A DNA stretch of 40,732 bases, from assembly GCA_017469935.1 (NCBI GenBank), contig JAFUFL010000089.1:1-40732 (forward strand). Reading direction: 5' to 3'. Shown piece after piece: positions 16,648 through 31,563 of this stretch (positions are counted from its first letter, which is position 1; every line of letters begins with the position of its first letter). The DNA comes from Lachnospiraceae bacterium. Its GTDB lineage: Bacteria > Bacillota > Clostridia > Lachnospirales > Lachnospiraceae. The position numbers were made by a program, and so were the translations under genes. The notes below the pieces were generated by a model. The model was not told the origin of the DNA. It saw only the letters and a list, made by a program, of their open reading frames with translations, and ran no database searches.

Positions 16648-18363
16648 TCAGGTCCTCACATAAGCCTGCATGACCTTGACCGGCCCTGAGACCGTCCTCA
16701 ATCTGTATTTCCCCACACATTCCGGCACGATAAATGTCTCCGCGTAATGGACTTCATAGGGCTCAAAGCTCCCGTCCACACTCTCAACAAGGCATCTGCC
16801 GCCTTCGACCAGATTAAGCACATTAACGCTCTCATGGCAGTCAAGTTCTGCGCTGTCACGCACCGTAAAGCGCCTGGTCTCTATGAACTCAAGCTCATGA
16901 AGCCCGGTATGTTCTTCCAGATAATGCTCGTTTTCGGTCACTGTATGAACAGGGCTCACCAGGTTCTCCATGACCCAGTCTGTCCGCCGCTCCTGTATGA
17001 CCTTCTCTCCGCGGCTGATGTTGATCGGTCTGGGCTTGCCGTCCAGGCCGAGACGCCCCCAGTCCCAGAGCTTGAAGGTAAAGATATAGGGCGTCGCACT
17101 GATCTCCAGGACCATGGCACCGCTCCCCGAACAGTGAATAGTGCCTGCCGGAATCAGAAAATGATCGTGTTTTTTGGCGGGAATCTTATTAATAAACTTC
17201 TCCGCGTCAAAAGGCGCGCCGCCCTGCTGCGCCGCTTCCAGCTCCGCGATCATGTCCTCGATGCGGACTCCTTCCTTCAGTCCCAGATAGACGCAGGCGC
17301 CTTCTTCCGCGTCCAGAATATAGTAGCTCTCGTCCTGCGTGTAAGCCATGCCGAAATTGCGGTGGATGTAGTCGGTGGTCGGATGGACCTGCAGGGACAG
17401 GTTCTGCCCTCCGATCGTATCCAGGAAATCGAACCTGATCGGGAACTCGGCGCCGAACCGGGCGTACACTTTTTTGCCCAGAAGTTCCTTCGGGTGGCGG
17501 AGGATCAGATTCATGGCCGGCATCTCCAGAACGGTCCCGTCAAAGTCAAAGCATATGCTGTTCTCCTCCGGCACGCCGTCGAAGCTCCAGGCGTAATTGT
17601 CCGCCTCAGGATCCAGTCCGCAGACCTTCTTCATCCACTGGCCGCCCCAGACGCCCGGGTCAAAATAGGGCACGACCCGGAAGGGCCCCGAAACCTCTTT
17701 CTGCAGTGCCTCGTCAAAGAGATCCTTTCGGATCATGACGTAATCGTCGTCCCTGTTTGCATCTATGAAATATCGCATCTTGTCCATAAAAGGCATCTTC
17801 CACTTGTCCGCGATGCGCCACTCCAGAAAATAGCCCTGCTTGAATTTTCTCAGGATATCCTCATCCGGATCATCCGTAAAATAGCAGGACATTCCTGCGC
17901 GATAGCGCAGCTGGATCTCCCAGCGGCTCAGATCGGCGAAAATGCACAGCCCCTCGTCAGCGAGAAGGGAGGCGCCAAAGCCGTAGACAGCAACTTTCCC
18001 ATTGGTACCTTTTACCTTGTCTCTGAGATAACTTACCTTTATGGGATTCACAAAATCGGTCAGCTCGCCGCTGTACATCCGCCCGAAGACGCGATCTTCC
18101 GTCAGGATGTTGTCGAGCAGGATCTTCATTTCCGCTTCATCTCTCAGAATATCTCTTGCGCAGATCAAAAGATCCGGCTCCAGCTCCTCAAGAAGTCGGC
18201 GCATATTGTCCTCTGAAACGCCGGGATAAGTCTCCGCAATCAACGTCCAGCTTTCGCCGGACAGCTCCTCCCGCAGACAGTCAAGGATCTCATGGCTGCC
18301 TCTGAATACCCTGCCTGCGCTGTTTTCGATATGTAAGGTCGGTCGTTTATTGTAATCGGACAT
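16648..18363 (-). CDS. manA: Class I mannose-6-phosphate isomerase with N-terminal extension
   Basis: A 571-residue protein. The C-terminal part from about residue 238 (FRVVPYFDPGVWGGQWMKK) is a type I phosphomannose isomerase: LSLQVHPTTDYIH supplies Gln and His zinc ligands and IPAGTIHCSGSG another His. It interconverts mannose-6-phosphate and fructose-6-phosphate. The first ~235 residues have no counterpart in ordinary 320-390-residue enzymes; they contain ADLSRWEIQLRYRAG and KQGYFLEWRIADKWK, a fold I do not recognise. The start at 18363 follows AAAGGAG; the ORF could reach 18390. It is divergent from the lactate/quinone operon. Confidence 0.88.
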   Translation of the reverse strand: MSDYNKRPTLHIENSAGRVFRGSHEILDCLREELSGESWTLIAETYPGVSEDNMRRLLEELEPDLLICARDILRDEAEMKILLDNILTEDRVFGRMYSGELTDFVNPIKVSYLRDKVKGTNGKVAVYGFGASLLADEGLCIFADLSRWEIQLRYRAGMSCYFTDDPDEDILRKFKQGYFLEWRIADKWKMPFMDKMRYFIDANRDDDYVMIRKDLFDEALQKEVSGPFRVVPYFDPGVWGGQWMKKVCGLDPEADNYAWSFDGVPEENSICFDFDGTVLEMPAMNLILRHPKELLGKKVYARFGAEFPIRFDFLDTIGGQNLSLQVHPTTDYIHRNFGMAYTQDESYYILDAEEGACVYLGLKEGVRIEDMIAELEAAQQGGAPFDAEKFINKIPAKKHDHFLIPAGTIHCSGSGAMVLEISATPYIFTFKLWDWGRLGLDGKPRPINISRGEKVIQERRTDWVMENLVSPVHTVTENEHYLEEHTGLHELEFIETRRFTVRDSAELDCHESVNVLNLVEGGRCLVESVDGSFEPYEVHYAETFIVPECVGKYRLRTVSGPVKVMQAYVRT

Positions 18364-18401
18364 GACGGCTCCTTTCTTTAATACAGACATCCTACATTTT
18401 T

Positions 18402-18407
18402 ATTATA
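18402..18407 (-). promoter_or_regulatory. -10 element of the manA promoter
   Basis: Perfect minus-strand TATAAT about 40 bases before the ATG. No good -35 is seen at the usual distance, suggesting an activator or a weak promoter. Confidence 0.45.
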
Positions 18408-18517
18408 TCGTGTATTACCATGCAGGTGCCGAAACGTTGCGCTCATTATATCGTTCATTTCTGTTCGCCATTTTTCACTGGTTGTGCATTTTTTGTCATT
18501 TTTAAATGTATTTCATC

Positions 18518-18529
18518 CACAAAATTGTG
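18518..18529. promoter_or_regulatory. Candidate operator upstream of the lactate operon
   Basis: CACAA-AA-TTGTG is an inverted pair 28 bases upstream of the -35. Another CACAA follows at about 18547. The position suits a regulator site, possibly for a GntR-type lactate regulator, but no regulator gene is adjacent. Confidence 0.4.
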
Positions 18530-18557
18530 CGAAAAGTCATGCAATCCACAAGTTTTA

Positions 18558-18586
18558 TTGAAAGCCGATAGTGAAAGCGATACAAT
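18558..18586 (+). promoter_or_regulatory. Promoter of the lactate/quinone operon
   Basis: TTGAAA at 18558-18563 and TACAAT at 18581-18586 are 17 bases apart. The leader is about 50 bases before the lutC start, with AAAGGAG just ahead of the ATG. Confidence 0.75.
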
Positions 18587-18641
18587 AAATTATGTAAAAC
18601 TTGGTGTTTTTATGCATTTTACTTAAGAAAGGAGTGCGACA

Positions 18642-19190
18642 ATGGGAGCTGTAGATGTTCTGTATGAGCGGTTCGAGAAGAATCTGCAGGCAGTAAACGG
18701 TAACAGCTGGCTGGCCGACAAGGCCGAAGCCGCAGGCATTATCGCTCAGGCCTACAAGGAAGAAGGGGTAGATTCCGTATGTATCGCAGAGTCACCGCTG
18801 CTTCAGGAGATCGGCCTGGCGAAAGCTCTTGCTGATGCCGGCATGGAAGTCTATACCGACCACCTTCGTCTTCATGCGGAGACCGCAAAGGGCGGCGTGC
18901 TGGAAGCACAGTGCGGTATTGCTGATCTTGGCAGTATTATTCAGCTGAGCGATGACATCGACAACCGGATCGTAGCCATCATGCCTGAATACTGTATCGG
19001 CGTAGTCAGACTCTCTGAGATTGTAGATGACTACGATGCAATGTTTGACAAACTCTGTTCGCTGGAGACTCTCCCGGCTTTCGTGGGCTTTATTACCGGA
19101 CCCAGCCGTACCGCCGATATCGAGTGCGTGAGTACGGTAGGCGTTCACGGTCCCCTGAAGCTTTCGATCGTCGTGATCAAGGATGTCTGA
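18642..19190 (+). CDS. lutC: LutC-like LUD-domain protein
   Basis: A 182-residue LUD-domain protein resembling LutC/YkgG, a subunit of the LutABC iron-sulfur lactate oxidation complex. The family blocks are VCIAESPLLQEIGLAKALADAG near the middle (in two parts), EAQCGIADLGSIIQLSDD, VAIMPEYCIGVVRLSEIV and FITGPSRTADIE; the last is the common LUD ending. It has no cysteine cluster itself. It opens a ten-gene run and is followed 38 bases later by a fused LutB-LutA. The ATG is preceded by AAAGGAG. Family assignment good; its role in lactate oxidation is supported by the lactate permease in the same run. Confidence 0.88.
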   Translation: MGAVDVLYERFEKNLQAVNGNSWLADKAEAAGIIAQAYKEEGVDSVCIAESPLLQEIGLAKALADAGMEVYTDHLRLHAETAKGGVLEAQCGIADLGSIIQLSDDIDNRIVAIMPEYCIGVVRLSEIVDDYDAMFDKLCSLETLPAFVGFITGPSRTADIECVSTVGVHGPLKLSIVVIKDV

Positions 19191-19228
19191 CAGATTTGAC
19201 AGATCGATAAGGGAAAGGAGGCAGCAGA

Positions 19229-21388
19229 ATGGCAAATGAAGCTTTGAAGCAGGAAATAAAGTCTGCTCTCAGTAATAAGACGCTTGGCAGGACACTCGGT
19301 ACGTTCTGTGAGACATATCCCGAGAGAAGACTGAAATCATATGAAGGCGTTGACTTTGAAGAGACCCGCGAGAATATCCGCAGAGTCAAGGGATACGCCG
19401 CCGATCACATCGATGAGATGATCGAGGAATTTACGAAGAACTGCACCGCCCGCGGCGGGCACGTCTTCCATGCGACCAGCGCTGATGAGGCGATCGAATT
19501 CGTCCGCAACCTGGTCAAGGAAAAAGGGGTTCAGACCATCGTCAAATCCAAATCGATGGCTTCCGAAGAGATCCACATGAACAAGATCCTGGGCGACGAC
19601 GGCGTCCTGGTACAGGAGACCGACCTGGGCGAGTTCATCATCGCTCTCGAAGGCAATACTCCCGTGCACATGGTCATGCCCGCTCTTCACCTGAACAAAG
19701 AGCAGGTGGCCGATCTTTTCACAGACTATACCAAAGTAGAGAACAAGCCGATCATTTCCGAAGAGGTAAAGACGGCTCGTAAAGTAATGAGAGACAAATT
19801 CACACATGCGGACATGGGTGTATCCGGTGCCAACGTGGCGGTTGCCGAGACCGGCACGGTCTTCACCATGACCAACGAAGGAAACGGCCGTATGGTCGGC
19901 ACGCTTCCCAAGATCCATCTGTATGTGTTCGGTATCGAGAAGTTCGTAAAGAGCCTGTCCGATGCACGCTATATTTTCAAAGCACTTCCCCGCAACGGCA
20001 CGGCCCAGAGACTGACCGCTTATCTGTCCCTGTACACCGGCGCAAACGAAGTAGTGCTCGACAAAGAGACCGACGAGAAGGGCCAGAAGGACTTCTACTG
20101 CGTGATTCTGGATGATCCGGGAAGACGCGAGATCCTCGCCGAAGAGTCCTTCAGAGAGATCTTCGACTGCATCCGCTGCGGCGCATGTCTTGACGTATGT
20201 CCCGCCTTCGCTCTGCTGGGCGGCCACGTATATGGAAGTAATGTCTATACCGGCGGTATCGGCACACTGCTGAGCCACTTCCTGGTATCCGAGGAGCGTG
20301 CGGAGCAGATCCAGAACATCTGCCTGCAGTGCGGAAGATGTAAGGAAGTCTGCGGCGGCGGCCTGCACATCCCGGAGATGATCATGAAGCTGCGTGAGCG
20401 CAGCATGGAGAAGCATCCCAACCCGACTTACAAGTTCGCTCTGGATGCTGTCAGCGACAGGAAACTCTTCCACTCCATGCTCCGCATCGCTTCGATCGCA
20501 CAGCCCGCATTTATGAAGCAGGGCCAGCCCATGATGCGCCATCTGCCCATGTTCCTGTCCGGTCTCTCCGAGGGAAGAAGCCTTCCCAAGATCGCCCAGG
20601 TTCCGTTCAGGGATGTATTCCCGACCATTGAGCAGGATGTCCCCAATCCTAAGGGCAAAATAGCGATCTTCACAGGGTGCCTTCTCGACTTCGTCTACAT
20701 TGACACCGCCAAGGCGGTCATCAAGGACCTCAACTCCATCGGCTATATCGTCGATATGCCCATGGGCCAGTCCTGCTGCGGCGCTCCCGCTACCTACATG
20801 GGCGACAGAGAGAACGCCAAAAAGACCGCGGAGCTCAACATCAACGCGATGGCGGCAGAAAACTACGATTACATCGTATCGGCCTGCCCGACCTGCACGC
20901 ACCAGCTCAGGGAGTACGAGCAGTTCTTCCAGGACGATCCCGAGATGCTCGCAAAGGCCAAAGAGCTCGGCGAGAAGAGCTATGACTTCTGCAAACTGTT
21001 CCACATGCTGGGCGGCCTCTCCGACGAGGGCGACGGCAAGGAACTCAATATTACATACCACGATTCCTGCCACCTCAAGAGATCCATGGGCGTGTTCAAG
21101 GAGCAGAGAGAACTGCTGACCCACACCAAGGGCGTCCATCTCACCGAGATGAAGGAAAGCGACAACTGCTGCGGATTCGGCGGAACCTACAGTATCAAGT
21201 TCCCCGAGGTGGCAGCTCCCATCCTCGAGCGCAAGGTCGAGCATATCAAAGAGACCGGTGCAGATACCGTCGCAGTGGACTGCCCCGGCTGCATGATGCA
21301 GATCAGCGGCGGACTCGATGCCAGAGACATCCCTGTCGATGTCAAGCACACCGCAGTCATCATCGCCGAGAAGAGAGGATTAATGTAA
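19229..21388 (+). CDS. lutBA: LutB-LutA fusion: LUD domain, dicluster ferredoxin and CCG domains
   Basis: A 719-residue protein joining what are usually two genes. Residues 1 to about 290 form the LUD domain of LutB (SKSMASEEIHMN, GVSGANVAVAETGTVF). Two 4Fe-4S motifs follow: CIRCGACLDVCP from residue 314 and CLQCGRCKEVC from 365. The rest is LutA-like with paired cysteine-rich CCG motifs: FTGCLLDF (Cys484), SCCGAPATY, ACPTCTHQL, YHDSCHLKR and DNCCGFGGTY. With LutC it would form a cytoplasmic lactate:acceptor oxidoreductase. Start follows AAAGGAGG. No frameshift is seen at the junction, so the fusion looks real. The electron acceptor is not fixed by sequence. Confidence 0.92.
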   Translation: MANEALKQEIKSALSNKTLGRTLGTFCETYPERRLKSYEGVDFEETRENIRRVKGYAADHIDEMIEEFTKNCTARGGHVFHATSADEAIEFVRNLVKEKGVQTIVKSKSMASEEIHMNKILGDDGVLVQETDLGEFIIALEGNTPVHMVMPALHLNKEQVADLFTDYTKVENKPIISEEVKTARKVMRDKFTHADMGVSGANVAVAETGTVFTMTNEGNGRMVGTLPKIHLYVFGIEKFVKSLSDARYIFKALPRNGTAQRLTAYLSLYTGANEVVLDKETDEKGQKDFYCVILDDPGRREILAEESFREIFDCIRCGACLDVCPAFALLGGHVYGSNVYTGGIGTLLSHFLVSEERAEQIQNICLQCGRCKEVCGGGLHIPEMIMKLRERSMEKHPNPTYKFALDAVSDRKLFHSMLRIASIAQPAFMKQGQPMMRHLPMFLSGLSEGRSLPKIAQVPFRDVFPTIEQDVPNPKGKIAIFTGCLLDFVYIDTAKAVIKDLNSIGYIVDMPMGQSCCGAPATYMGDRENAKKTAELNINAMAAENYDYIVSACPTCTHQLREYEQFFQDDPEMLAKAKELGEKSYDFCKLFHMLGGLSDEGDGKELNITYHDSCHLKRSMGVFKEQRELLTHTKGVHLTEMKESDNCCGFGGTYSIKFPEVAAPILERKVEHIKETGADTVAVDCPGCMMQISGGLDARDIPVDVKHTAVIIAEKRGLM

Positions 21389-21391
21389 AGA

Positions 21392-22354
21392 ATGATCAGT
21401 GACTGGATGGACAATGTCGAGTCCGACATCGCGAGGCTCACCGCACATCCTTACGCCGGTACGCCGGTGGGAGAAGTGCTGGACTGGGCCGCCTGTTCAA
21501 AGGGAAAACGGATTCGTCCCATGCTCCTCATCCTGAGCGCCATGTTCGGTCCGCGCTGTGAAGAGCGGCGCGCCCGTCTGTCGCTTTTAGCCGCCATGAC
21601 GGAGATCACCCATCTGGCCTCGCTCGTGCACGACGACATCGTAGACGACGCCCCTGTCCGCAGGGAAAAAGCTTCCGTACAGAAGAAATTCGGTAAGGAC
21701 GCAGCCGTCTACGCGGGAGATTTTCTCATCTCGCGCGTCATGTACACGCAGGCACAGGAGAATCTCCACGAGTCCGGCATGATCCTGGCAGGCGCCATCG
21801 GACAGATGTGCGCCGGCGAGATCGGCCAGGCCGGCTGCCGCTACCGGGAAGATGTGACGCTGCAGGAATACCTCTGCAATATCCGAGGCAAGACGACGGC
21901 CCTTTTCAAGGCCGCCTGCCGGATCGGCGCACTCGAGAGCGGATGCTCTCCCGCCGTGATCGAACAGCTGGACAAGCTGGGAGAGGCGCTCGGATGCATG
22001 TTCCAGTTCCGGGACGATCTGCTCGATTTTACGACAAATCAGGCGTGTATGGGCAAGGAGACGCACAAGGATTTCCGCGACGGCATTTACACGATGCCGG
22101 TGCTCATGGCAATGCGGAATTCCGAGGCCAGAGACAAGCTTCTGCCCATAATGCGCAGAAACCGCGAAGAAGGGATCGACAGGACACAGATCAGGGAAAT
22201 GGAAGAGATCGTGCGGGAGTACGGTGGCGTAGAGAAGACCAAGAAAGAGATCCTTCGCTATCGGAAACGGTGCGAAGAGATCCTCGCAGGGCTTCCTGCC
22301 GGAGCCGCCTCTTCCGGCCTTGACAAAATAGTAAAGAAATGCGCGCAGGTCTGA
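21392..22354 (+). CDS. Polyprenyl diphosphate synthase
   Basis: A 320-residue trans-prenyltransferase. The first Asp-rich motif DDIVDD is at residues 81-86 in SLVHDDIVDDAPVRR and the second is QFRDDLLDF near 208. GKRIRPML near residue 38 binds the isopentenyl substrate. It would lengthen the isoprenoid tail used for a quinone; chain length cannot be read reliably. It starts three bases after the LutBA stop with only a weak ribosome site, so translation is probably coupled. Its place directly before menA strongly suggests a HepT-like quinone-tail role rather than a cell-wall or sterol role. Confidence 0.93.
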   Translation: MISDWMDNVESDIARLTAHPYAGTPVGEVLDWAACSKGKRIRPMLLILSAMFGPRCEERRARLSLLAAMTEITHLASLVHDDIVDDAPVRREKASVQKKFGKDAAVYAGDFLISRVMYTQAQENLHESGMILAGAIGQMCAGEIGQAGCRYREDVTLQEYLCNIRGKTTALFKAACRIGALESGCSPAVIEQLDKLGEALGCMFQFRDDLLDFTTNQACMGKETHKDFRDGIYTMPVLMAMRNSEARDKLLPIMRRNREEGIDRTQIREMEEIVREYGGVEKTKKEILRYRKRCEEILAGLPAGAASSGLDKIVKKCAQV

Positions 22355-22410
22355 CCGGCCGGTGATGCGCGCAGGGCAAACAGGATATTTTTTTTGATGA
22401 AAGTGTTTTG

Positions 22411-23367
22411 ATGAGAGTTATGAACAGTTCCGACAACCGCACAAGCGGCATTCGATACAATGCGCTGACCCCAAAGCTCGCACTGCAGCTCGCGGCGCCC
22501 CACACCTGGGCCGCCTCCGTGTTCCCGTCTCTTTTCGGGATCCTGTACTGCATCTATCGATCTTTTGGCATAAGCGCCATAGAGGCCGCTCTTCTGTTGT
22601 CCGCCTGCGTGCTCATGCAGGCCGCTGTGAATACTTTCAATGATTATATGGATTTTGTAAAAGGCACTGACAGCCTGGAGGACAATCTTGAGAAGGAGGA
22701 CGCCGTTCTTCTGTACGCAGGCGTCGACCCGCATCAGGTCAGGAACCTGGCCTTCGCCTTTCTCGGGACGGCGGCTCTGATCGGAATCGGTTTTACCGTA
22801 AAGAGCGGACCGCTTCCTCTTGCGATCGGCCTTCTGGGCGGACTGATCGTGCTGCTCTACTCCGGAGGCCCGCTGCCGATCTCCTATCTCCCGATCGGAG
22901 AGATCACGTCGGGTGTCGTGATGGGCGCTCTGATCCCGCTGGGGATCACGGCGGCCGTTACAGGCAGCTTTCATCCGGAGATCCTGCCCCTCACTCTCCC
23001 CCTTGTCACGGGGATCGGTCTCATCATGATGACCAACAACACCTGTGACATCGAGAAGGACCTGAAGGCGGGAAGGAGAACATTTTCGGGCTGCATCGGA
23101 AGAGCGAAAGCCGTGCGCGTATACCGGCTCGCGGTGATCCTCTGGATGCTCCTCATCGCCCTTGACGGCGCCCTCCTGGGCCGCGCGCCCCTTACGGCCG
23201 CGCTCCTCGGAGTCGCCGCCGCCTACATTCCGGCTTACCGCTTTCTGATGCGCTCCCCGCTCCTTCAGAGCACGCGGGTCGCGCAGATGAAAGGGATCCT
23301 GAAGGCAAATATCTGCAGCGGCATCGTCTGCCTGGCCATTCTGCTGGCGGCGATCGCGACCGGATGA
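22411..23367 (+). CDS. menA: MenA-like 1,4-dihydroxy-2-naphthoate prenyltransferase
   Basis: A UbiA-family membrane prenyltransferase of about 318 residues with eight or nine hydrophobic segments. The two Asp-rich motifs are NTFNDYMD (residues 74-81) and NNTCDIEKD (near 209), and LYSGGPLPISYLPIGEI is typical of the MenA branch. It would attach the prenyl tail to dihydroxynaphthoate. No start has a good ribosome site; TTG-22408, ATG-22411 and ATG-22420 are all possible. Its stop overlaps the menG start by four bases. Substrate assignment rests on sequence resemblance plus the adjacent prenyl synthase and methyltransferase. Confidence 0.88.
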   Translation: MRVMNSSDNRTSGIRYNALTPKLALQLAAPHTWAASVFPSLFGILYCIYRSFGISAIEAALLLSACVLMQAAVNTFNDYMDFVKGTDSLEDNLEKEDAVLLYAGVDPHQVRNLAFAFLGTAALIGIGFTVKSGPLPLAIGLLGGLIVLLYSGGPLPISYLPIGEITSGVVMGALIPLGITAAVTGSFHPEILPLTLPLVTGIGLIMMTNNTCDIEKDLKAGRRTFSGCIGRAKAVRVYRLAVILWMLLIALDGALLGRAPLTAALLGVAAAYIPAYRFLMRSPLLQSTRVAQMKGILKANICSGIVCLAILLAAIATG

Positions 23368-24122
23368 AAAAAGTGAGGTACAGATCAATGCGTTCTGCAC
23401 AGAACCTGACAGAGGAAGAAAAACAGGATAAAGTCTTCCGCGTCTTCGAGACGATCGCGAGCGGGTATGACAGGGCGAATGTGAGGATCAGCCTCGGCAT
23501 GCAGGATTCCTGGAAAGAAATGCTGATCCGGGAAGCGGTCCGGCGCCCTCGAAACAGGGTGCTCGACCTGTGCACCGGGACCGGAGATATTGCCATCGGT
23601 ATTGCAAAGGCCGATGCAAAATGCAGAATAACCGGCATGGATTTTTCCCCTTCTATGCTCAGGGTCGCTGCCCGCAAGGCGAGACGGCTCGGAATCACGA
23701 ACATAAGGTGGAGAAAAGGAAATGCCATGAAAATCCCTTGCGGCGATGCATATTTTGACGCCGTGAGCATATCGTTCGGACTGCGCAACTGCGCGGACCC
23801 GCAGCAGGTACTGGAGGAGATCTTCCGGGTGCTGCGGCCGGGAGGAGAGATCCTGTGTCTGGAATCCTTCGTCCCGGACAGTCCCGCGGTGAAGCCTTTC
23901 TACCGGCTCTATTTCGGCAGGATCATGCCCCTCCTGGGAGGCGGACGGTCCAAGCGGAAAGAGTACGAGTGGCTGCAGGAGTCAACAGAGAGCTTCCTGC
24001 GCGCGAAGGAGTTGTTACAGCTCATGCGAAGGTGCGGATTTGTCGATGTCAGAGTCAGGCGCAGAATGATGGGCGCCTGCGCGCTGCACGTCGCTGTGAA
24101 GCCCGCCTGCATGAAACAGTAA
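23364..24122 (+). CDS. menG: MenG/UbiE quinone C-methyltransferase
   Basis: A 252-residue class I SAM methyltransferase of the MenG/UbiE family. Motif I is VLDLCTGTGDIAIG, preceded by FETIASGYDRANVRISLG, and followed by MDFSPSMLRVA and SISFGLRNCADP, all UbiE landmarks; the ending MMGACALHVAVKP fits too. It would methylate demethylmenaquinone to menaquinone. Overlapping start with menA (ATGA). The protein is rather basic, as expected of an enzyme acting on a membrane lipid. Confidence 0.92.
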   Translation: MKKVRYRSMRSAQNLTEEEKQDKVFRVFETIASGYDRANVRISLGMQDSWKEMLIREAVRRPRNRVLDLCTGTGDIAIGIAKADAKCRITGMDFSPSMLRVAARKARRLGITNIRWRKGNAMKIPCGDAYFDAVSISFGLRNCADPQQVLEEIFRVLRPGGEILCLESFVPDSPAVKPFYRLYFGRIMPLLGGGRSKRKEYEWLQESTESFLRAKELLQLMRRCGFVDVRVRRRMMGACALHVAVKPACMKQ

Positions 24123-24223
24123 GAAGTCCGATCGATCATCATTCAACAGCGGCAAGGGGCGTGCCCGCACTGCCCTGCGCCCGGAAACCGACGAACGAAC
24201 CACGCAAGGAGGTTTTGGTAGAT

Positions 24224-25516
24224 ATGAGTGAAGAAAAATTTGATGCCATAATTGTTGGCGGAGGTCTGGCAGGACTCACAGCCGCGTACTGTCTGGCACA
24301 GGCGGAGATGGAAGTTCTTGTCATTGAAAGAGGTACTTTCTGCGGTTCCAAGAACGTGACCGGAGGAAGGATCTACACACACAGTCTCGAGAAAGTGATG
24401 CCCGGTTTTGCCGAGGAAGCGCCTCTTGAGAGAAAGGTCACCAAAGAGCGCGTCGCTCTGATGACAGAGAAAGGCGTAGTGAACATCGAGTATGCGTCCG
24501 GCAAGCCTGACACACCGGAAACGGCTTCCTACACGGTGCTTCGCAGCAAATTCGACAAGTGGTTTGCGGAGAAGTGCGAGGAAGTCGGTGCTATGATGGT
24601 TCCCGGCATCCGTGTCGACTCGCTGATCAAGGACGGCGACAAGATCGTCGGCATCGACGCCGGCGGCGAAGAGATGTACGCCGATGTAGTGATCCTTGCA
24701 GACGGCGTTAACTCCCTTCTGGCCCAGTCCATCGGCCTCAAGCCCGAGCTCAAGCCCGAGCAGGTGGCCGTCGGCTGTAAGGAAGTCATCCAGCTGGGTG
24801 AGGACGTGATCAATCAGCGCTTCGGCCTGGAAGGCAATGACGGCTTGTCCATGCTTGTGGCGGGCGATCCCACCGTCGGCAATATCGGCGGCGGATTCCT
24901 CTACACCAATAAGGACAGCGTCTCCATCGGTATCGTCGCTACCTGCAGCGATATCGGCCGCGTAGACGTCTCCATCCCGGATATGCTGGAGCGCTTCAAG
25001 AACCACCCTTCCATCGAGCCCCTGATCAAGGGCGGGCTTCCGCTGGAGTATTCCGCACACCTGGTTCCCGAGGGCGGATTTGACATGATCCCCAAGCTGT
25101 ATGACAACGGCGTTCTGGTGACCGGTGATGCAGCTGCCTTCGTGATCAACCTCGGCTACACGGTCCGCGGCATGGACTTCGCCGTGGAGTCCGGAAGACT
25201 GGCCGCAGAGGCAGTGATCCGCGCTAAAGCGGCGGATGATTTCAGCGCCAAATCTCTCGCTTACTATCAGAAGCTTGTGGAGAACAGCTTCATCTATACG
25301 GATATGAAGCAGTACCGCAACTTCCCCAAGCTCCTTGAGCGCCATGAGATCTTCAACGATGTGCCTGAGATCGCCGACGTTCTCTTCGACAGGCTCTTCA
25401 GAGTGGACGGCAAAAAGCCCGTGTCTCTGCCGATGTTCGCCATCGATGAGATCGCGAAGCGCACCAGCGCCTCCAAGCTCCTCGAGCTTGTCATGGTCGC
25501 CCTTGACGCATTATAA
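24224..25516 (+). CDS. fixC: FixC-like electron transfer flavoprotein:quinone oxidoreductase
   Basis: A 430-residue FAD protein of the FixC/ETF-QO family. The dinucleotide motif VGGGLAGLTAAYCLAQ is at residues 12-27; the second FAD block is GVLVTGDAAAFVINLGYTVRG then MDFAVESGRLAAEA. It would take electrons from an electron transfer flavoprotein and pass them to a membrane quinone. The next gene is its ferredoxin-like partner FixX. FixA/FixB (EtfBA) are absent here. The ATG at 24224 follows AAGGAGG at a longish 11 bases; the frame is open to 23855 but the family start is here. A 100-base gap separates it from menG. Confidence 0.92.
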   Translation: MSEEKFDAIIVGGGLAGLTAAYCLAQAEMEVLVIERGTFCGSKNVTGGRIYTHSLEKVMPGFAEEAPLERKVTKERVALMTEKGVVNIEYASGKPDTPETASYTVLRSKFDKWFAEKCEEVGAMMVPGIRVDSLIKDGDKIVGIDAGGEEMYADVVILADGVNSLLAQSIGLKPELKPEQVAVGCKEVIQLGEDVINQRFGLEGNDGLSMLVAGDPTVGNIGGGFLYTNKDSVSIGIVATCSDIGRVDVSIPDMLERFKNHPSIEPLIKGGLPLEYSAHLVPEGGFDMIPKLYDNGVLVTGDAAAFVINLGYTVRGMDFAVESGRLAAEAVIRAKAADDFSAKSLAYYQKLVENSFIYTDMKQYRNFPKLLERHEIFNDVPEIADVLFDRLFRVDGKKPVSLPMFAIDEIAKRTSASKLLELVMVALDAL

Positions 25517-25539
25517 GAGACAGGAAGGAGGAAACCAAA

Positions 25540-25827
25540 ATGGCAAAAAAAGTTCCTGTAGATGACAAACTGGGCTATAACAATTTTCATACCGACGAGA
25601 GCTATGCCCATATTGAGATCAACAGTGATTTTAAGGATGAGGAAGAGATCCGCAAGGTCGTCCTCGCCTGCCCCGCTGAGCTCTACAAATACGAGAACGG
25701 TGAACTCGCTTTCAATCACGAGGGCTGCCTTGAGTGCGGCACCTGCCGTGTCGTCTCCGGCGGCAAAGTAGTGAAGAGCTGGAATCACCCTTACGGAGAA
25801 ATGGGTGTGACCTATATGCAGGGTTGA
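25540..25827 (+). CDS. fixX: FixX-like ferredoxin
   Basis: A 95-residue ferredoxin-like protein of the FixX family. Cys44 (ACPAELY) and the group C63-x2-C66-x2-C69 in GCLECGTCR give four ligands for one 4Fe-4S cluster, the normal FixX pattern. It acts with FixC in electron transfer to the quinone pool; in larger ETF-QO proteins the same domain is fused to the C-terminus. The start follows AAGGAGG with good spacing, 23 bases after fixC. A long hairpin lies between it and the next gene. Confidence 0.92.
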   Translation: MAKKVPVDDKLGYNNFHTDESYAHIEINSDFKDEEEIRKVVLACPAELYKYENGELAFNHEGCLECGTCRVVSGGKVVKSWNHPYGEMGVTYMQG

Positions 25828-25878
25828 CCTGCGGCACAGGGCGTAACTTTTCGCCCGTACTTTAAGTAAAACAAGCCC

Positions 25879-25925
25879 TCCGGGGATCACCGGTTCGGCC
25901 TTTTGGCCGGACAGCGGTCCCCGGA
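25879..25925 (+). other. Intercistronic hairpin between fixX and the first ArsA-like gene
   Basis: TCCGGGGA (25879-25886) pairs with TCCCCGGA (25918-25925). Inside, TTCGGCC and GGCCGGA close a TTTT loop. No T-run follows, so it looks more like an RNA-processing or stability element than a terminator. Confidence 0.65.
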
Positions 25926-25982
25926 GCAAGGTTGTCGTTTATCTTTAGAGGGGGCCTCCCCCTGAGAGCAATTGAGGCAGGA

Positions 25983-27188
25983 ATGGGCAGAATCATTATT
26001 TTTACCGGAAAAGGCGGCGTAGGCAAGACGAGCATCATCTCGGCCCACGCGCTGCGCGCTGCTCGCAGCGGAATGAAAACACTTCTGGTGAGTGCCGACA
26101 TGGCGCATAACCTGGGAGATCTCTTCGAGACAGAGACGGGCGGGGAATTTGTCAGCCCCACTGCCAATCTCACACTCCTGGAACTGGACCCGGGAAAGAT
26201 CATGCGCGAGCACTACCCTGACCTGAACCGCTCTCTTCTGGAGATGCTCGGCGGCTCCATGAGCCGCGCGGCAGGAAGCGTTAACAGTGAGTTCATGATC
26301 CCCGGCTTTGAGGATCTGTTCATGCTGCTGGGGATCCGCGATCTGTATAAGAGCGGCGAATATGACCTTCTTCTTGTAGACTGCGCGCCGTCCGGCGAGA
26401 CATTATCCCTCCTCAAGCTCCCGGAGCTTCTGGAGTGGTATATGGAGAAATTCTTTCCCGTCGGCAAGTTCATGACGCGGGTTCTCTCCCCCGTCTCCAA
26501 CGCGCTCTACAAAGTCAGGCTCCCCGACAGCACGGCGATGGACCAGGTCTCCCTGATGCACCGAAACCTCGTTGACCCTCAGGAACTTCTCAAGGACCCG
26601 CAGGTGACTACCGTCCGCCTGATCACGCTCCCCGAGAAAATGGTGGTCGAAGAGACCAAGAGAACCTACATGTACCTGAATCTGTACGGCTACCGGGTCG
26701 AGCGCGTCTTTATTAACCGCGTGCTCCCTCCCATGCCGGATAATCCTTTTATGGACAGCTGGCACGGGATCCAGAAGACGTACATCGAGGAGGTGGAACG
26801 TGTGTTTTCACACATTCCGGTCACCCGGATTCCCTGGTTTCCCGAGGAGATCAAAGGCCTCGAAGCGGTGGAGAGACTGAGCCGCTGTCTGCCGGACAAT
26901 GAGGTTCTCTTTGCGCCGGCCGACACGGAATCGTCCGCGCAGGCCTCGGAGACCTATGAGATCACGCCGGAAGGGTGCTGCCTCAGCCTGTATATGCCCG
27001 GTGCCGAAAGCGTATCCGTTCAGGTCTGCGGCCGCGATCTGGATATAAAGACGGCAAACGTTCTGCGGAAGATCCCCCTGCCCGCAGTTCTGTACAGGGC
27101 AGAAATCCTTAAGACACAGCTCACCGACGGCTTTCTTAAAGTGTACTTCCGTTATTCCAGCGAAGACAAAGCAGAGGGACAATTATGA
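25983..27188 (+). CDS. ArsA/Get3-family ATPase with alpha-crystallin-like C-terminus (copy 1)
   Basis: A 401-residue ATPase. The deviant P-loop GKGGVGKT is at residues 9-16, switch I is SADMAHNLGD (Asp39), switch II is DCAPSGETLSLL (Asp133), all in the ArsA/Get3 form. The last ~80 residues (CCLSLYMPGAESVSVQVCGRD, split by me at 20, and LKVYFRY) look like the ArsA_HSP20 alpha-crystallin-like domain found in the Get3d group. There is no CxxC zinc motif and no second ATPase half, unlike arsenite-pump ArsA. No arsenic genes are nearby. It may insert or chaperone a membrane or cofactor-binding protein, but this is inference. Start chosen at the conserved MGRIIIF; overlaps copy 2 by four bases. Confidence 0.88.
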   Translation: MGRIIIFTGKGGVGKTSIISAHALRAARSGMKTLLVSADMAHNLGDLFETETGGEFVSPTANLTLLELDPGKIMREHYPDLNRSLLEMLGGSMSRAAGSVNSEFMIPGFEDLFMLLGIRDLYKSGEYDLLLVDCAPSGETLSLLKLPELLEWYMEKFFPVGKFMTRVLSPVSNALYKVRLPDSTAMDQVSLMHRNLVDPQELLKDPQVTTVRLITLPEKMVVEETKRTYMYLNLYGYRVERVFINRVLPPMPDNPFMDSWHGIQKTYIEEVERVFSHIPVTRIPWFPEEIKGLEAVERLSRCLPDNEVLFAPADTESSAQASETYEITPEGCCLSLYMPGAESVSVQVCGRDLDIKTANVLRKIPLPAVLYRAEILKTQLTDGFLKVYFRYSSEDKAEGQL

Positions 27189-28432
27189 GAATACTGATGT
27201 ACACCGGAAAGGGAGGCGTAGGAAAGACAGGCATCGCCGCTGCCACGGCAGTCCGATGCGCCGCGCTCGGCTACCGGACGAACATAATGAGCACCGATCA
27301 GGCGCACAGCCTCGGAGATGTCTTCGAATGCCGGATCGGATCCGCCCCCGTACGGATCGCGGACAACCTGACAGCTCTGGAGGTCGATCCCGCCGTGGAA
27401 AGCGAGCGCGCGTGGGGAACCCTGAAGGATTATCTCCGGCAGATCATGGAAGAAAAATCAGGTGAGAGCTTGGCCGCACAGGAAGCACTGGTCTTCCCCG
27501 GCCTGGAGGAACTCTCCTCTCTCCTGCGCATTCTCGATCTCAGCGAAGCGGGATCCTGCGATGTCCTTGTGGTCGACTGCTCGCCGACCGGCGAGACGCT
27601 CTCACTCCTGCGCTATCCCGAACAGCTCCGCGTGCTCACGGACAAAGTCCTGCCCATGGTGCGCAGCGTCACGAGCGCTTTCGGAGGGCTGATCAGCCGC
27701 GCCACGACCGTTCCCAAGCCCAGAGACAAGGTCTTTGAGGAGCTGGACATCGTTGTCAAAAGATTGCACGGCCTGCAGAAGATCCTCTGCGACCGGCAGA
27801 CGACGGGTATTCGCCTCGTCATGACGCCGGAGAGCATCGTAGTGAGCGAGGCGGAGCGCTCTTACTCCTGGCTGAGCGCCTTCGACTTTGGCGTAGACGC
27901 CGTCTATGTCAACCGGATCTATCCGAAAGAAGCCCTGAGCGGCAGCTTTGCCGGTTGGGCCTCCATGCAGGAGAAGAGCCTGGCGCGGGTAAAAGAGAGT
28001 TTTGCCCTGCAAAAGCAGTTCTATCTCCCGCTGCAGGATAAAGAGCTTCGCGGCATCCCGGTGCTGGAATCCGTTGCGGCGCAGCTCTACGGGGAACTCG
28101 CGGCAGGACCTGTGCCGGAGTCCGACTCGGCGCAGCTCTACGGGGAGCTCGCGGCAGAACCGGAAAAAGGGTGCAGCATCGACCCTGCGACTATATTTTG
28201 CGCAGAACAGAGCTATACGACCGAGAGAAATATGGAGGACGGCTCCTGGATCATGACAGTGCGCCTCCCCTATATGAAGAGCACGGATCTTTCGGTGTCG
28301 AAGGACGGGAATGACCTGATCCTGGACGTGCACGGCGAGCGGCGGCGGTTCCGGCTTACGGAACAGTGCGGCCGACGGGAACTGAAATCGTGGTCGTATG
28401 AAAACGGCCGCCTTCAGATCATATTTGCGTAG
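27185..28432 (+). CDS. ArsA/Get3-family ATPase with alpha-crystallin-like C-terminus (copy 2)
   Basis: A 415-residue paralogue of the preceding gene, its ATG overlapping that stop. P-loop GKGGVGKT is at residues 8-15, switch I is STDQAHSLGD and switch II DCSPTGETLSLL. The C-terminal ~80 residues (SWIMTVRLPYMKSTDLSV, LILDVHGERRRF) fit an alpha-crystallin-like fold. Between the domains a 51-base in-frame tandem duplication gives two copies of AQLYGELAA (bases 28081 and 28132). The two paralogues have clearly diverged, which suggests they work as a heterodimer or on different clients. Role in the lactate/quinone operon is unknown. Confidence 0.88.
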   Translation: MRILMYTGKGGVGKTGIAAATAVRCAALGYRTNIMSTDQAHSLGDVFECRIGSAPVRIADNLTALEVDPAVESERAWGTLKDYLRQIMEEKSGESLAAQEALVFPGLEELSSLLRILDLSEAGSCDVLVVDCSPTGETLSLLRYPEQLRVLTDKVLPMVRSVTSAFGGLISRATTVPKPRDKVFEELDIVVKRLHGLQKILCDRQTTGIRLVMTPESIVVSEAERSYSWLSAFDFGVDAVYVNRIYPKEALSGSFAGWASMQEKSLARVKESFALQKQFYLPLQDKELRGIPVLESVAAQLYGELAAGPVPESDSAQLYGELAAEPEKGCSIDPATIFCAEQSYTTERNMEDGSWIMTVRLPYMKSTDLSVSKDGNDLILDVHGERRRFRLTEQCGRRELKSWSYENGRLQIIFA

Positions 28433-28520
28433 ATACTGTCCGCTTAAAGATCGCGTCATCAGGTCGTTGTCGGCAGCCGGATGTGTCTGAGTATCTGAAG
28501 TTATTAAGGAGGAACAGAAA

Positions 28521-30056
28521 ATGTTAATAGTCAAATTTATTCTGGGACTTGTTCCGATCATCTGGCTGATCATCGCCCTGACCGGCATGAAAATGCCCGG
28601 CTACAAAGCCTGCAGTATCGCAATCATTTTTGCAGCCGTTGTTGCACTGTTTTACAAACATCTTCCGGTCATTTCCGTGGGAACCGCTTTCCTCGAAGGC
28701 GTATTCAGCGCTCTGTGGCCGATCATCCTCGTCATTCTGGCCGCACTGTTCGTCTACGCGCTGACTCTCGAGACAGGTGCTATGGAAGAGATCAAGGCGA
28801 TGCTCAGCAGCGTGTCCAGAGACAAGCGCGTACTCGGTCTGATCATCGGCTGGGGCTTCGGATGCTTCATGGAAGGTATGGCAGGTTTCGGTACCGCTGT
28901 TGCTATCCCCGCATCCATCCTGGTTGCGCTGAACTTCGATCCGATTCCCACTGTTCTGGCGCTCCTGATCGTCAACTCCACGCCTACCGCCTTCGGCAGC
29001 GTCGGCGTCCCGACGACCTCTCTGGCTTCCGCCACAAATCTCGCCGTCAATACCCTGTCCCTGAACACGGTGCGCATTGAGGTTTTGCTCATGGCGATCT
29101 CCCCGATCCTGTTCGTCATCGTGATCGGCGGCGGTCTTAAGGCCCTCAAAGGAATGATTCCGTTCACGATCATCGCGTCGGCCTCCTTTGTCATTCCCAA
29201 CTACATTATCGGCGCCTTCATCGGTCCCGAGCTTCCCGATATCATCGGTTCGATTTGCTCCATGATCATCATGATCCTCGTAGCTCTCAAGATGAAGAAT
29301 AAAGAGGTGCCCGAGGAATACCTGGTAGGCGGCTCTGATTCACAGAAAGAGCTCAAACTCGATGTAAACAGCGCGCTGCGCGCGTGGAGCCCCTTCATTC
29401 TGATCTTCGTGCTCCTTCTGTTTACTTCCAAGCTGTTCCCTTTCATCAACGAACCGCTTTCCAAGATCTCTTCCAAAATCAACATCTATGTCGGTGAAGG
29501 CGCGACGCCCACCAGCTTCACCTGGATCAATACCCCCGGTGTCTGGATCATCCTTTCCGGTATCGTCGGCGGCCTGATCCAGGGCGCGTCGATCAGCAAG
29601 ATCTTCGGCGTTCTCGGCGCTACGATCAAGAAGAATATCAAGACGATCGTGACGATCTGCTCCGTCCTTGCAACCGCTAAGATTATGGTGCACAGCGGCA
29701 TGACGACCGACGTCGCAGACGTCCTCGTCACTGTGACAGGCAAGTTCTATCCGCTGTTCTCCCCTCTGGTCGGCGTTCTCGGCGCATTCGTCACAGGTTC
29801 CGGCACAAGTACCGGCGTTCTGTTCGGACCTCTGCAGTCCGCCTCCGCAACGCAGCTCGGACTTTCTCCCGAATGGCTCTGCGCGGCCAACTCTCTCGGC
29901 GCAGGCGTTGGCAAGATGATCTCGCCTTCCAACATCGCGCTGGCAACTGCCTCGGCAGGACTGGCCGGCCGCGAAAATGAGATCCTGAGCGGTATCTTCA
30001 AGTACTGCATCCTCTATGCGGTGGTCGGAGGAATTATCTGCTTCGCATTTGTCTGA
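28521..30056 (+). CDS. lctP: L-lactate permease
   Basis: A 511-residue LctP-family transporter with about 12-14 hydrophobic segments. Recognised blocks are GWGFGCFMEGMAGFGTAVAI in the first half, NSTPTAFGSVGVPTTS next, and GSGTSTGVLFGPLQ with GAGVGKMISPSNIA near the end, all characteristic of the family. It imports lactate with protons. It is the last gene of the run that starts with lutC, which makes lactate the obvious substrate for the pathway. The ATG follows AAGGAGG; a strong terminator follows the stop. Confidence 0.95.
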   Translation: MLIVKFILGLVPIIWLIIALTGMKMPGYKACSIAIIFAAVVALFYKHLPVISVGTAFLEGVFSALWPIILVILAALFVYALTLETGAMEEIKAMLSSVSRDKRVLGLIIGWGFGCFMEGMAGFGTAVAIPASILVALNFDPIPTVLALLIVNSTPTAFGSVGVPTTSLASATNLAVNTLSLNTVRIEVLLMAISPILFVIVIGGGLKALKGMIPFTIIASASFVIPNYIIGAFIGPELPDIIGSICSMIIMILVALKMKNKEVPEEYLVGGSDSQKELKLDVNSALRAWSPFILIFVLLLFTSKLFPFINEPLSKISSKINIYVGEGATPTSFTWINTPGVWIILSGIVGGLIQGASISKIFGVLGATIKKNIKTIVTICSVLATAKIMVHSGMTTDVADVLVTVTGKFYPLFSPLVGVLGAFVTGSGTSTGVLFGPLQSASATQLGLSPEWLCAANSLGAGVGKMISPSNIALATASAGLAGRENEILSGIFKYCILYAVVGGIICFAFV

Positions 30057-30114
30057 TCGCGGAGCGAGCCACGGGGCTCGGGCCTCAATAATGGAATATG
30101 CTTTATATGCTGAA

Positions 30115-30148
30115 CAAGAGCCGCCGGAGGTATCTCCGGCGGCTCTTG
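30115..30148 (+). terminator. Terminator of the lactate/quinone operon
   Basis: CAAGAGCCGCCGGAG (30115-30129) pairs perfectly over 15 bases with CTCCGGCGGCTCTTG (30134-30148), loop GTAT, followed by TTTGG. Confidence 0.85.
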
Positions 30149-30221
30149 TTTGGCATTATGGCAGATTTGAGCGGCACTGATGATCTGGTGCCGGATGAGG
30201 TTACTCCTGCGGCATCAGATT

Positions 30222-30434
30222 GTAAGAAGCTTCTCAAAACTGACATTCTGCTAAACGAGTGCTGCGCAAGGGGGCAATTGCGGCATTTGATCGTAAGAAG
30301 CTTCTCAAAACTGGCGTAGTGCTAAACGAGTGCTGCTCAAGAGGGTAACTGCGGCATTTGATCGTAAGAAGCTTTTCAAAGCCGGCATGGTGCTAAACGA
30401 GTGCTGCGCAAGGGGGCAATTGCGGCATTTGATC
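30222..30434. repeat. Three 71-bp tandem repeats
   Basis: Units start at 30222, 30293 and 30364, each beginning GTAAGAAGCTT and ending GCGGCATTTGATC, with scattered differences. A decayed partial unit seems to precede them. The length is not a multiple of three and no frame reads through, so they are non-coding. AGAAGCTTCT within units 1 and 2 is a palindrome. Confidence 0.85.
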
Positions 30435-30553
30435 AACAGCTTCCTCTGTCAGCATTGTGAGTTGGATTATTAGAATACTTTTTTCTTCTATGGCCTCCAT
30501 CGCTTTTTCTGATTGCCGGCACAAAGTGAAAAAATCAAAGCAATTTATATCTG

Positions 30554-30752
30554 GGTTGGACCATAAACAAGAATTCTTCCTCGCCGGCCCCCATACTAGA
30601 CAGCTTGTCACGTACTGTATGGAGGCCGGCGCCATAACAATATGTCTTATAATCCAACTTGCCGGAAAATACGCTGATATTCACATATTTTCAGTATTTT
30701 GCCGATTTTCCATGGGGGCAGGTTGAACAAATCTCCCCCCTATGGTCCAACC
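30554..30752. mobile_element. 199-bp segment with 12-bp terminal inverted repeats (MITE-like)
   Basis: GGTTGGACCATA (30554-30565) and TATGGTCCAACC (30741-30752) are perfect inverted ends. Inside, CGCCGGCC/GGCCGGCG and CCATAC/GTATGG form a long hairpin at 30582-30631. No transposase and no clear target duplication were seen, so the mobile reading is tentative. Confidence 0.4.
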
Positions 30753-30831
30753 GAAGCTGAACCCCAGAGGCATTATATTTTCTGCATATAATCCCCCCAA
30801 CCGAAGCTGACCCCCAGGGCCGTTATATTTT
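30747..30831. repeat. 50-bp tandem duplication
   Basis: CCAACCGAAGCTGA and a TTATATTTT tail occur at 30747 and again at 30797 with few differences. The left copy overlaps the right end of the inverted-repeat segment. Confidence 0.65.
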
Positions 30832-30936
30832 TACAAATACCCCTATTCATTTAAAGCTTGCGGAGCACTCCACTGCTCCGCGTGTAGGCTGCGTCAATGG
30901 CAGCCCCCATAACAGCACCTATCCAAACACACATGC

Positions 30937-30966
30937 AAAAAACACAGGGGAAATTCTCCCCTGTGT
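30937..30966 (-). terminator. Terminator of the SH3-like protein gene
   Basis: On the minus strand ACACAGGGGA pairs with TCCCCTGTGT and runs into six T residues (30942-30937), about 50 bases after the stop at 31014. Confidence 0.85.
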
Positions 30967-31013
30967 CCTTCAACAAGATCTGTCCGATCAATGAATCCAA
31001 TCAGTTTAATCGA

Positions 31014-31322
31014 TCAGTCTAACTCAGTATATGCTCTGTAAATGTAGCCGTAGCACTCGCCTCCTCTGGGATCATAGATCCAGAGTCTCCACCACTGGCC
31101 GTCTGTTGTGAGTCCGTCGACCTTAAGTCTGTGGCCTCTCTCATAAACCTTGGCGATCTCGCCGTTAGGCCAATATCTGCAGTTCAGAGTGGAAGAAGTA
31201 ACTCTCACCCAGCGAGGCTTGATATCGGTCACGCTGTAGTTCTCTCCGCCCATGCCGTCGTTTCCGCCTACGACTTCGTTAAGCTGTTCGTCACTTACCT
31301 TGTTGTTATTAATTTCGCTCAT
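31014..31322 (-). CDS. SH3-like protein with double-glycine leader
   Basis: A 102-residue protein. Residues 1-20 form a leader, MSEINNNKVSDEQLNEVVGG, of the bacteriocin type with Gly19-Gly20 as the expected cleavage site for a C39-peptidase ABC exporter. The remainder, from about residue 45, resembles a bacterial SH3 domain (LNCRYWPNGEIAKVYERGHR, WWRLWIYD, GYIYRAYTEL). So it is probably exported and may bind cell wall, but it need not be an antimicrobial. No exporter, modification or immunity gene is in the window. Start follows GGAGG by six bases; frame could open earlier at 31349. It has its own terminator and appears monocistronic. Confidence 0.75.
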   Translation of the reverse strand: MSEINNNKVSDEQLNEVVGGNDGMGGENYSVTDIKPRWVRVTSSTLNCRYWPNGEIAKVYERGHRLKVDGLTTDGQWWRLWIYDPRGGECYGYIYRAYTELD

Positions 31323-31563
31323 TTTAGTCCTCCAATTCCGGGATTGCATTTCTTACTGGCTTGACTGTGCCATCGTTCCCGATTCCTTTTTTATCAGTGC
31401 TTTCCGCTGATCATTTATCAGCTACATTACTATATACGAGTGGATCTATGATATCCACGCACGAATTTAATTTTCTTGAGGGTTATTTAATTGCCATATT
31501 AAATGCAACTTGCCGGATTAAATTCCCACTCTTTATGGGGAATTAACCCCTGACGGCCTGTTT

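Follow-up and report, generated by a model that had tools for sequence, protein, structure and literature searches.

The window analyzed here is the whole of a 40,732-nucleotide (nt) contig (C78; JAFUFL010000089.1) from a 3.55 Mb, 98.55% complete draft genome of a Lachnospiraceae bacterium, and it carries a ten-gene cluster (18642..30056, + strand) whose products would join lactate oxidation to the completion of menaquinone. Its nearest named loci belong to uncultured Lachnospiraceae. An original prediction, made without database searches, had read the cluster as a lactate-to-quinone operon with twin Get3-like ATPases; the ten genes, their order, their single strand and their families all hold, as the open reading frames (ORFs) are intact and open and Pfam and NCBIfam searches back all ten assignments.

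The cluster begins with a lutC-like gene (18642..19190; a LUD-domain protein of 182 amino acids (aa); PF02589, 93 bits) and ldhH (19229..21388), a 719-aa fusion of LutB and LutA with LUD, 4Fe-4S and CCG domains. Three quinone genes follow: a polyprenyl diphosphate synthase (21392..22354, 320 aa; PF00348, 196 bits), a menA-like prenyltransferase for 1,4-dihydroxy-2-naphthoate (DHNA; 22408..23367, 319 aa), and menG/ubiE, which encodes a demethylmenaquinone methyltransferase (23364..24122, 252 aa; TIGR01934 and NF001244, both above cut-off). The remainder comprises fixC/etfC, a flavoprotein of the quinone oxidoreductase type (24224..25516, 430 aa); fixX, a ferredoxin-like protein (25540..25827, 95 aa); two adjacent Get3/ArsA ATPases, each with a C-terminal HSP20-like domain (PF17886; arsA1, 25983..27188; arsA2, 27185..28432); and the lactate permease gene lctP (28521..30056, 511 aa; TIGR00795 above cut-off). 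Three starts were corrected: fixC to an ATG at 24224, menA to a TTG, and arsA1 perhaps to an ATG at 25983 in place of a possible TTG at 25932.

With these preferred starts the intergenic gaps run from -4 to 155 nt, as short as had been predicted, with 4-nt overlaps at menA-menG and arsA1-arsA2 and a spacing of 101 nt between menG and fixC. Where a clear promoter had been called, a sigma-70-like match does lie 5′ of lutC (18558..18586, + strand; TTGAAA-17-TACAAT, 10/12 matches), but 17500-31500 holds 10 promoter-like sites against 6.4 ± 3.0 in shuffled sequence, so this match is not evidence by itself. The call of a strong terminator fared better: a hairpin with a 23-bp stem (30107..30156, + strand) folds at -44.3 kcal/mol, far more stable than shuffled sequence (z = -13.1). 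A pattern scan of 17500-31500 did not list this hairpin, probably because the short T tract is itself paired within the stem. No RNA element in the window reached Rfam gathering scores. On these sequence features, the ten genes are likely co-transcribed.

The combination recurs in relatives. We examined a genus sample of 41 genomes, the window's own plus 40 sampled evenly from a larger set, by the co-occurrence search that the original prediction had proposed. MenA was found in 17 of the 41 and LdhH in the same 17, above cut-off in 14 of them, the other three being contig fragments. ArsA1 was present in 16 of these 17 operon-bearing genomes, whereas none of the 24 others had it; the exception, G688, is an assembly of 77% completeness in which the operon contig breaks off inside fixC. 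Both ATPase copies were found in 15 congeners; G691 has a single match, located where its contig stops. Sixteen genomes had a completeness of 90% or more and a contamination of 5% or less: five of these carried MenA, LdhH and ArsA1 and eleven carried none of the three. Fisher tests of co-occurrence within the genus gave p = 6.6e-12 (MenA with LdhH) and 1.6e-10, values that treat related genomes as independent and are uncorrected for kinship.

Gene order, which the original prediction had set as a test, is likewise conserved. We scanned one genome per species with a query alignment of 14 MenA proteins from the genus and kept the best 80 of 233 relatives; ldhH precedes menA, on the same strand and within 1.2 kb, in 38 of these 80 MenA loci (L229, with its ldhH 8 kb away on the opposite strand, was excluded from the count). 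The usual order is lutC, ldhH, in some loci a polyprenyl synthase, menA, menG, fixC and fixX, and wherever menG, fixC or fixX is absent, the absence coincides with a contig end. Carriers include strains of Eubacterium yurii, Pseudoramibacter alactolyticus, Megasphaera paucivorans and Frisingicoccus caecimuris. The 38 loci span six NCBI family names by record title, a rough guide in that bin titles are approximate and Sarcina is filed under Clostridiaceae. This conservation supports a tie between lactate oxidation and quinone completion. Each gene belongs to a familiar family; of the conserved combination we found no description in the literature searched, which left out most subscription papers, in keeping with the original impression of familiar families in an unfamiliar arrangement.

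For lactate oxidation, LdhH scores 1004.4 bits against a cut-off of 800 on NF045670, the curated model 'L-lactate dehydrogenase (quinone) large subunit LdhH', and its LutC partner is encoded next to it. We propose that LdhH is the large subunit of an L-lactate:quinone dehydrogenase. Its CCG motif is present in 38/38 operon LdhH proteins, a C..C..C...C motif in 37/38 and the longer C..C..C...CP in 34/38; the one protein without C..C..C...C is probably the L164 fragment. The closest likeness is Lut[BA]C of Desulfitobacterium hafniense, also a LutC with a fused LutBA, which was more abundant with lactate and for which a cited model has the CCG motifs reduce menaquinone with no charge movement (PMC9888536). 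The window adds a polyprenyl synthase, MenA, MenG and FixCX, and the accessible part of that paper describes no such operon. Transfer of lactate electrons to menaquinone via Lut[BA]C is thus, by analogy, the best-grounded mechanistic step proposed here. The same substrate step is carried out in anaerobes by the Ldh-EtfAB complex (LctBCD) of Acetobacterium woodii; this enzyme, however, has EtfAB at its core and works with NAD and reduced ferredoxin (PMC5861303), whereas LdhH is a LUD/CCG iron-sulfur protein.

On the quinone side, MenA is a clear UbiA prenyltransferase whose best models are DHNA polyprenyltransferases, with scores below the NCBIfam equivalog cut-offs; its Asp-rich NDxxD and DxxxD-type motifs are invariant in 14/14 aligned sequences. 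None of the 41 genus genomes had MenD over cut-off (a control search recovered it over cut-off in 7/14 known genomes); weaker matches occur in 40/41, at most 77 bits against a cut-off of 244, and are taken as other thiamine-diphosphate enzymes. MqnA/MqnD were likewise over cut-off in 0/41 (control, 4/14 known genomes), with weaker partial matches in three. In the absence of MenD and MqnA/D matches over cut-off, menaquinone is probably completed from scavenged DHNA. Gut bacteria are known to use DHNA as a growth factor, and completion from it has been suggested for a Prevotella carrying menA and ubiE (Fenn et al. 2017, PMC5738691); that case shares quinone completion without a DHNA route, but here the completion genes sit inside a lactate operon. 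In the window's own genome the single MenA match (E ≤ 1e-10) is the one in the operon. The predicted link of lactate oxidation to quinone thus stands, but a dedicated pool was too strong a term: the operon more likely represents the whole quinone supply of this genome.

FixC is closest to EtfC of the Thermotoga EtfABCX complex, both in sequence (292 bits; 347 bits with a profile) and in fold (7koe_C, the quinone subunit of that complex; template modelling (TM) score 0.91, 36% identity), and lies well nearer to it than to geranylgeranyl reductases or the mitochondrial electron-transfer flavoprotein (ETF):quinone oxidoreductase. FixX has a CPA...CLECGTC motif in 31/31 operon proteins, and only four Cys are invariant in 18 aligned rows, enough for one 4Fe-4S cluster. 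The same FixC fold and a FixX of the same family are found in the bifurcating quinone reductases EtfABCX/FixABCX of Thermotoga maritima and Azotobacter; in the Thermotoga complex, menaquinone reduction runs by way of two Fe-S clusters in EtfX (PMC10734219). The window differs from them in having FixX ligands for one cluster instead of two and no FixAB among its ten operon genes, this being the one operon locus examined for ETF genes. Elsewhere in the window's own genome there are two ETF pairs (contigs C27 and C76), one an etfAB with two thiolases and a 3-hydroxybutyryl-CoA dehydrogenase, the other after an acyl-CoA dehydrogenase.

Some congeners carry an additional MenA, and in the four loci annotated (L122, L123, L124 and L125, from G674, G695, G702 and G684) its gene sits in a second quinone cluster with fixC and polyprenyl synthase genes. 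fixX is present in two of the four loci, and tatC and a radical SAM protein in both loci tested (L124, L125); L125 also has MobA-like, MoaC/MobB and MoeA genes. This content suggests a molybdoenzyme that is exported through Tat and has quinone genes to itself. FixC and MenA are therefore associated twice, in different settings.

The twin ATPases adjoin the operon in 24 of the 38 loci (both copies in 22): downstream in 19, upstream in four and divergent in one. On a quick-search LdhH tree of 39 rows, with two long branches that include the upstream-placed L182, the placement labels (downstream, upstream, divergent, absent) need eight changes, and the upstream label three. The pair thus probably came to lie beside the operon more than once, and such repeated re-association is the best argument we have for some functional tie to the module. 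A quick tree of 81 ATPases separates the operon ArsA1 proteins (support 96) from the operon ArsA2 proteins (99), each set clustering by itself, so that the paralogy seems to predate the association with the operon. The pair is also separable from the operon. Fourteen operon loci lack an adjacent pair; profile searches of the genomes of nine (L163, L164, L166, L215 and L216 being left out) found no pair in eight, while the genome of L184 has it on another contig. The same search recovered the pair in both positive-example operon genomes (L170, L182). The eight pair-less genomes include Megasphaera paucivorans, Megasphaera sp. NM10 and Pseudoramibacter; three are named strains (L171, L175, L180) and five are metagenome bins (L172, L178, L183, L195, L220), and none of the eight is listed with a completeness value. 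Two of the Megasphaera genomes give only a partial match inside an ORF of 577-596 aa, as long as a fused ArsA would be. On the other side, twelve genomes of the order and class carry a related pair with no operon neighbors in the stretches fetched; six of these have no MenA match at 1e-10, and the other six have weak ones (best 3.6e-23). We therefore rejected the idea that the ATPases belong strictly to quinone metabolism.

The two lysines of the P-loop, among them the signature lysine, and the Asp of the switch region are invariant in 24 aligned rows, including the window pair. The predicted ArsA1 structure (mean predicted local distance difference test score 81, with lower values in residues 140-190) resembles Get3 structures across its ATPase part and NosGet3d along almost the full chain. 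By sequence, the ATPases come closest to archaeal Get3 and match Get3d and mycobacterial BagAB more weakly. They have the Get3 fold in common with archaeal Get3, an HSP20-like C-terminus as well with Get3d, and the arrangement of two adjacent ATPases with BagAB; they differ from all three in being two old paralogues, both with the extra domain in the window. CxxC is the zinc motif of eukaryotic Get3, and it occurs in none of the 81 ATPases. For Get3d, binding of a tail-anchored protein and density consistent with phospholipid have been reported, its function being left open (PMC10248533). Two candidate explanations were discarded. An arsenite-pump ATPase is contradicted by arsenical model scores far below cut-off (TIGR04291, about 94 against 650 bits), and the preceding 161-166-aa ORF, considered as a conserved small partner, turned out to encode a regulator of the MarR family at all four loci tested, three of which have a pair and one a single ATPase.

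Separate from the operon, stand-alone arsA1-arsA2 pairs occur in Clostridia (L039-L042, L069-L076), usually after an ORF of 160-185 aa (MarR family in 3/3 tested), and a distinct group of single ATPases (L077-L085) also runs across Clostridia, the preceding ORF being of the MarR family in the one tested. Outside Bacillota, Gordonibacter sp. Marseille-P2775 (the genome of L237) carries a twin pair at L262:8374-11111, preceded by a 169-aa ORF with no NCBIfam match at 1e-20, and no lactate or menaquinone genes were recognized in the 20 kb fetched.

We lean modestly towards reading the operon as a conserved lactate-to-menaquinone module in which FixCX links the quinone to EtfAB. LctP would import lactate, which LutC and LdhH would oxidize to pyruvate in the cytoplasm, passing electrons through the Fe-S and CCG centers of Lut[BA]C to menaquinone; the polyprenyl synthase, MenA and MenG would make that menaquinone from DHNA taken up by the cell. 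FixCX would act as an EtfCX-type quinone:ETF oxidoreductase without FixAB of its own, joining the quinone to the cell's EtfAB. Because the window's own genome has a butyrate-type locus (the etfAB-thiolase cluster) and lacks a strong match to flavoproteins of the fumarate reductase family (none for PF00890 at 1e-30), the most parsimonious route would run from lactate through menaquinone, FixCX and EtfAB to crotonyl-CoA. The crotonyl-CoA potential lies near -10 mV. With lactate/pyruvate at -190 mV (PMC5861303 among the sources) and menaquinone taken at -74 mV (from a paper abstract), each step would be downhill. In enzymes of Megasphaera elsdenii, lactate electrons were long ago reported to reach crotonyl-CoA through ETF (PMC5861303), and several Megasphaera genomes carry the operon. 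The twin ATPases would then be an accessory pair, probably a heterodimeric chaperone or carrier of hydrophobic cargo, helpful but dispensable.

Several observations weigh against this reading. Beyond the genus, MenA frequently occurs without LdhH (42 of the 80 loci), mostly in Eggerthellaceae and kin, so MenA is not bound to LdhH everywhere, and a few of these 42 have menA-menG without ldhH. Uptake of DHNA is deduced from missing genes in draft genomes by a search that covered MenD and MqnA/D only. The order and direction of electron flow at FixCX rest on inference; FixX has no counterparts of T. maritima C29 and C33, the Cys pair of the distal cluster, and ETF is not operon-specific, occurring in 14/17 operon genomes and 23/24 others. 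Three operon genomes (G675, G689 and G691; 79, 87 and 67% complete) have no ETF match, no crotonase was identified in the butyrate-type locus, and, among possible terminal reductases for the quinol, the search of the window's own genome covered PF00890 flavoproteins. PF00890 (1e-30) is found in 6/17 operon genomes against 13/24 others; this distribution implies that the acceptor may differ by species and, with none in the window's own genome, led us to reject a fumarate-type reductase as the general acceptor.

The strongest rival, nearly as good an account though one we still regard as doubtful, treats FixCX as part of the lactate dehydrogenase, namely its membrane-facing quinone reductase: electrons would pass from LdhH to FixX, FixC and menaquinone with EtfAB uninvolved, and the quinol would feed a terminal reductase that differs by species. 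Such an arrangement fits the presence of fixC and fixX after the men genes in all of the 38 operon loci whose contigs extend there, the lack of any hydrophobic segment in LdhH above the hydropathy threshold, the single-cluster ligand set of FixX, the absence of ETF from the ten operon genes and the three operon genomes with no ETF match. However, no ldhH was seen in the 20 kb fetched for the second fixC-menA-polyprenyl synthase cluster, so LdhH is not an obligatory partner of FixC; in models of Lut proteins from elsewhere, quinone is reduced by way of their own CCG motifs (PMC9888536); and in an EtfAB-containing complex FixX carries the transfer from EtfAB to FixC (PMC9232219). That FixC is instead a prenyl-tail reductase of the MenJ/geranylgeranyl reductase type, saturating the menaquinone tail with FixX electrons, is very improbable: the superfamily is the same (TIGR02032, 101 bits), FixC sits with quinone genes and the TM score to 3oz2 is 0.71, but the MenJ score of 54 bits is far below the cut-off of 700 and EtfC is the far better fit in both sequence and fold.

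In the original prediction the ATPases served to mature or insert a component, which for this chain would mean Get3-like targeting. We consider this unlikely. The Get3 fold, the near-perfect match of ArsA1 to operon congeners, the recurrent placement beside the operon and the separate groups of operon pairs in the ATPase tree all speak for a role of this kind. Yet a simple hydropathy threshold assigns membrane segments to just two of the ten operon proteins, the polytopic MenA and LctP, and picks out a lone hydrophobic segment at the C-terminus in none (FixC and LutC fall just under the threshold, elsewhere than at the C-terminus); to this are added the missing CxxC, the eight pair-less operon genomes, Megasphaera and Pseudoramibacter isolates among them, and the pairs in genomes with no MenA match. 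Finally, chance neighborhood of genes with no shared function is hardly credible. Transcription across the junctions is read from sequence signals and the promoter match falls within background, but an order kept in 38/80 loci under six family names, with matching co-occurrence in 17 genomes, largely refutes it.

To our knowledge, fermenting, butyrate-type Clostridia have long been thought to lack menaquinone. A bolder proposal, which we offer tentatively and rate as rather improbable in its entirety, is that they run a short, non-pumping chain from lactate through menaquinone made with scavenged DHNA to FixCX, EtfAB and crotonyl-CoA, with a recruited heterodimeric Get3-HSP20 pair that carries prenyl or quinone intermediates or membrane-bound FixC. 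If true, the chain would spare the reduced ferredoxin that LctBCD spends on lactate oxidation, and lactate use by gut and rumen Clostridia would depend on a vitamin-K precursor from their neighbors, linking DHNA cross-feeding to lactate clearance and possibly to butyrate. The operon also offers a handle on the membrane partner of LutABC-type enzymes and on what bacterial Get3-like pairs do.

Other features of the window lie around the operon. Just 3′ of the operon hairpin, 30207-30434 holds an imperfect threefold tandem repeat (71-nt spacing; 86-90% identity over the 86 nt compared). Beyond it, on the - strand at 31014-31349, is a 111-aa ORF (start MQSRNWRTKMSEINNNKVSDEQLNEVVGG) with no Pfam match at 1e-5 and no NCBIfam match at 0.01, which looks like a bacteriocin or nitrile hydratase leader peptide (NHLP)-type leader. 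Divergent from the operon, a 580-aa ORF (16648-18390, - strand) has a weak mannose-6-phosphate isomerase match (31 bits, residues 248-343) that leaves about 240 N-terminal residues without explanation. Finally, a gene of the acetyl-CoA hydrolase/transferase family (7248-8582), located 10 kb 5′ of the operon, may encode a butyryl-CoA:acetate CoA-transferase.

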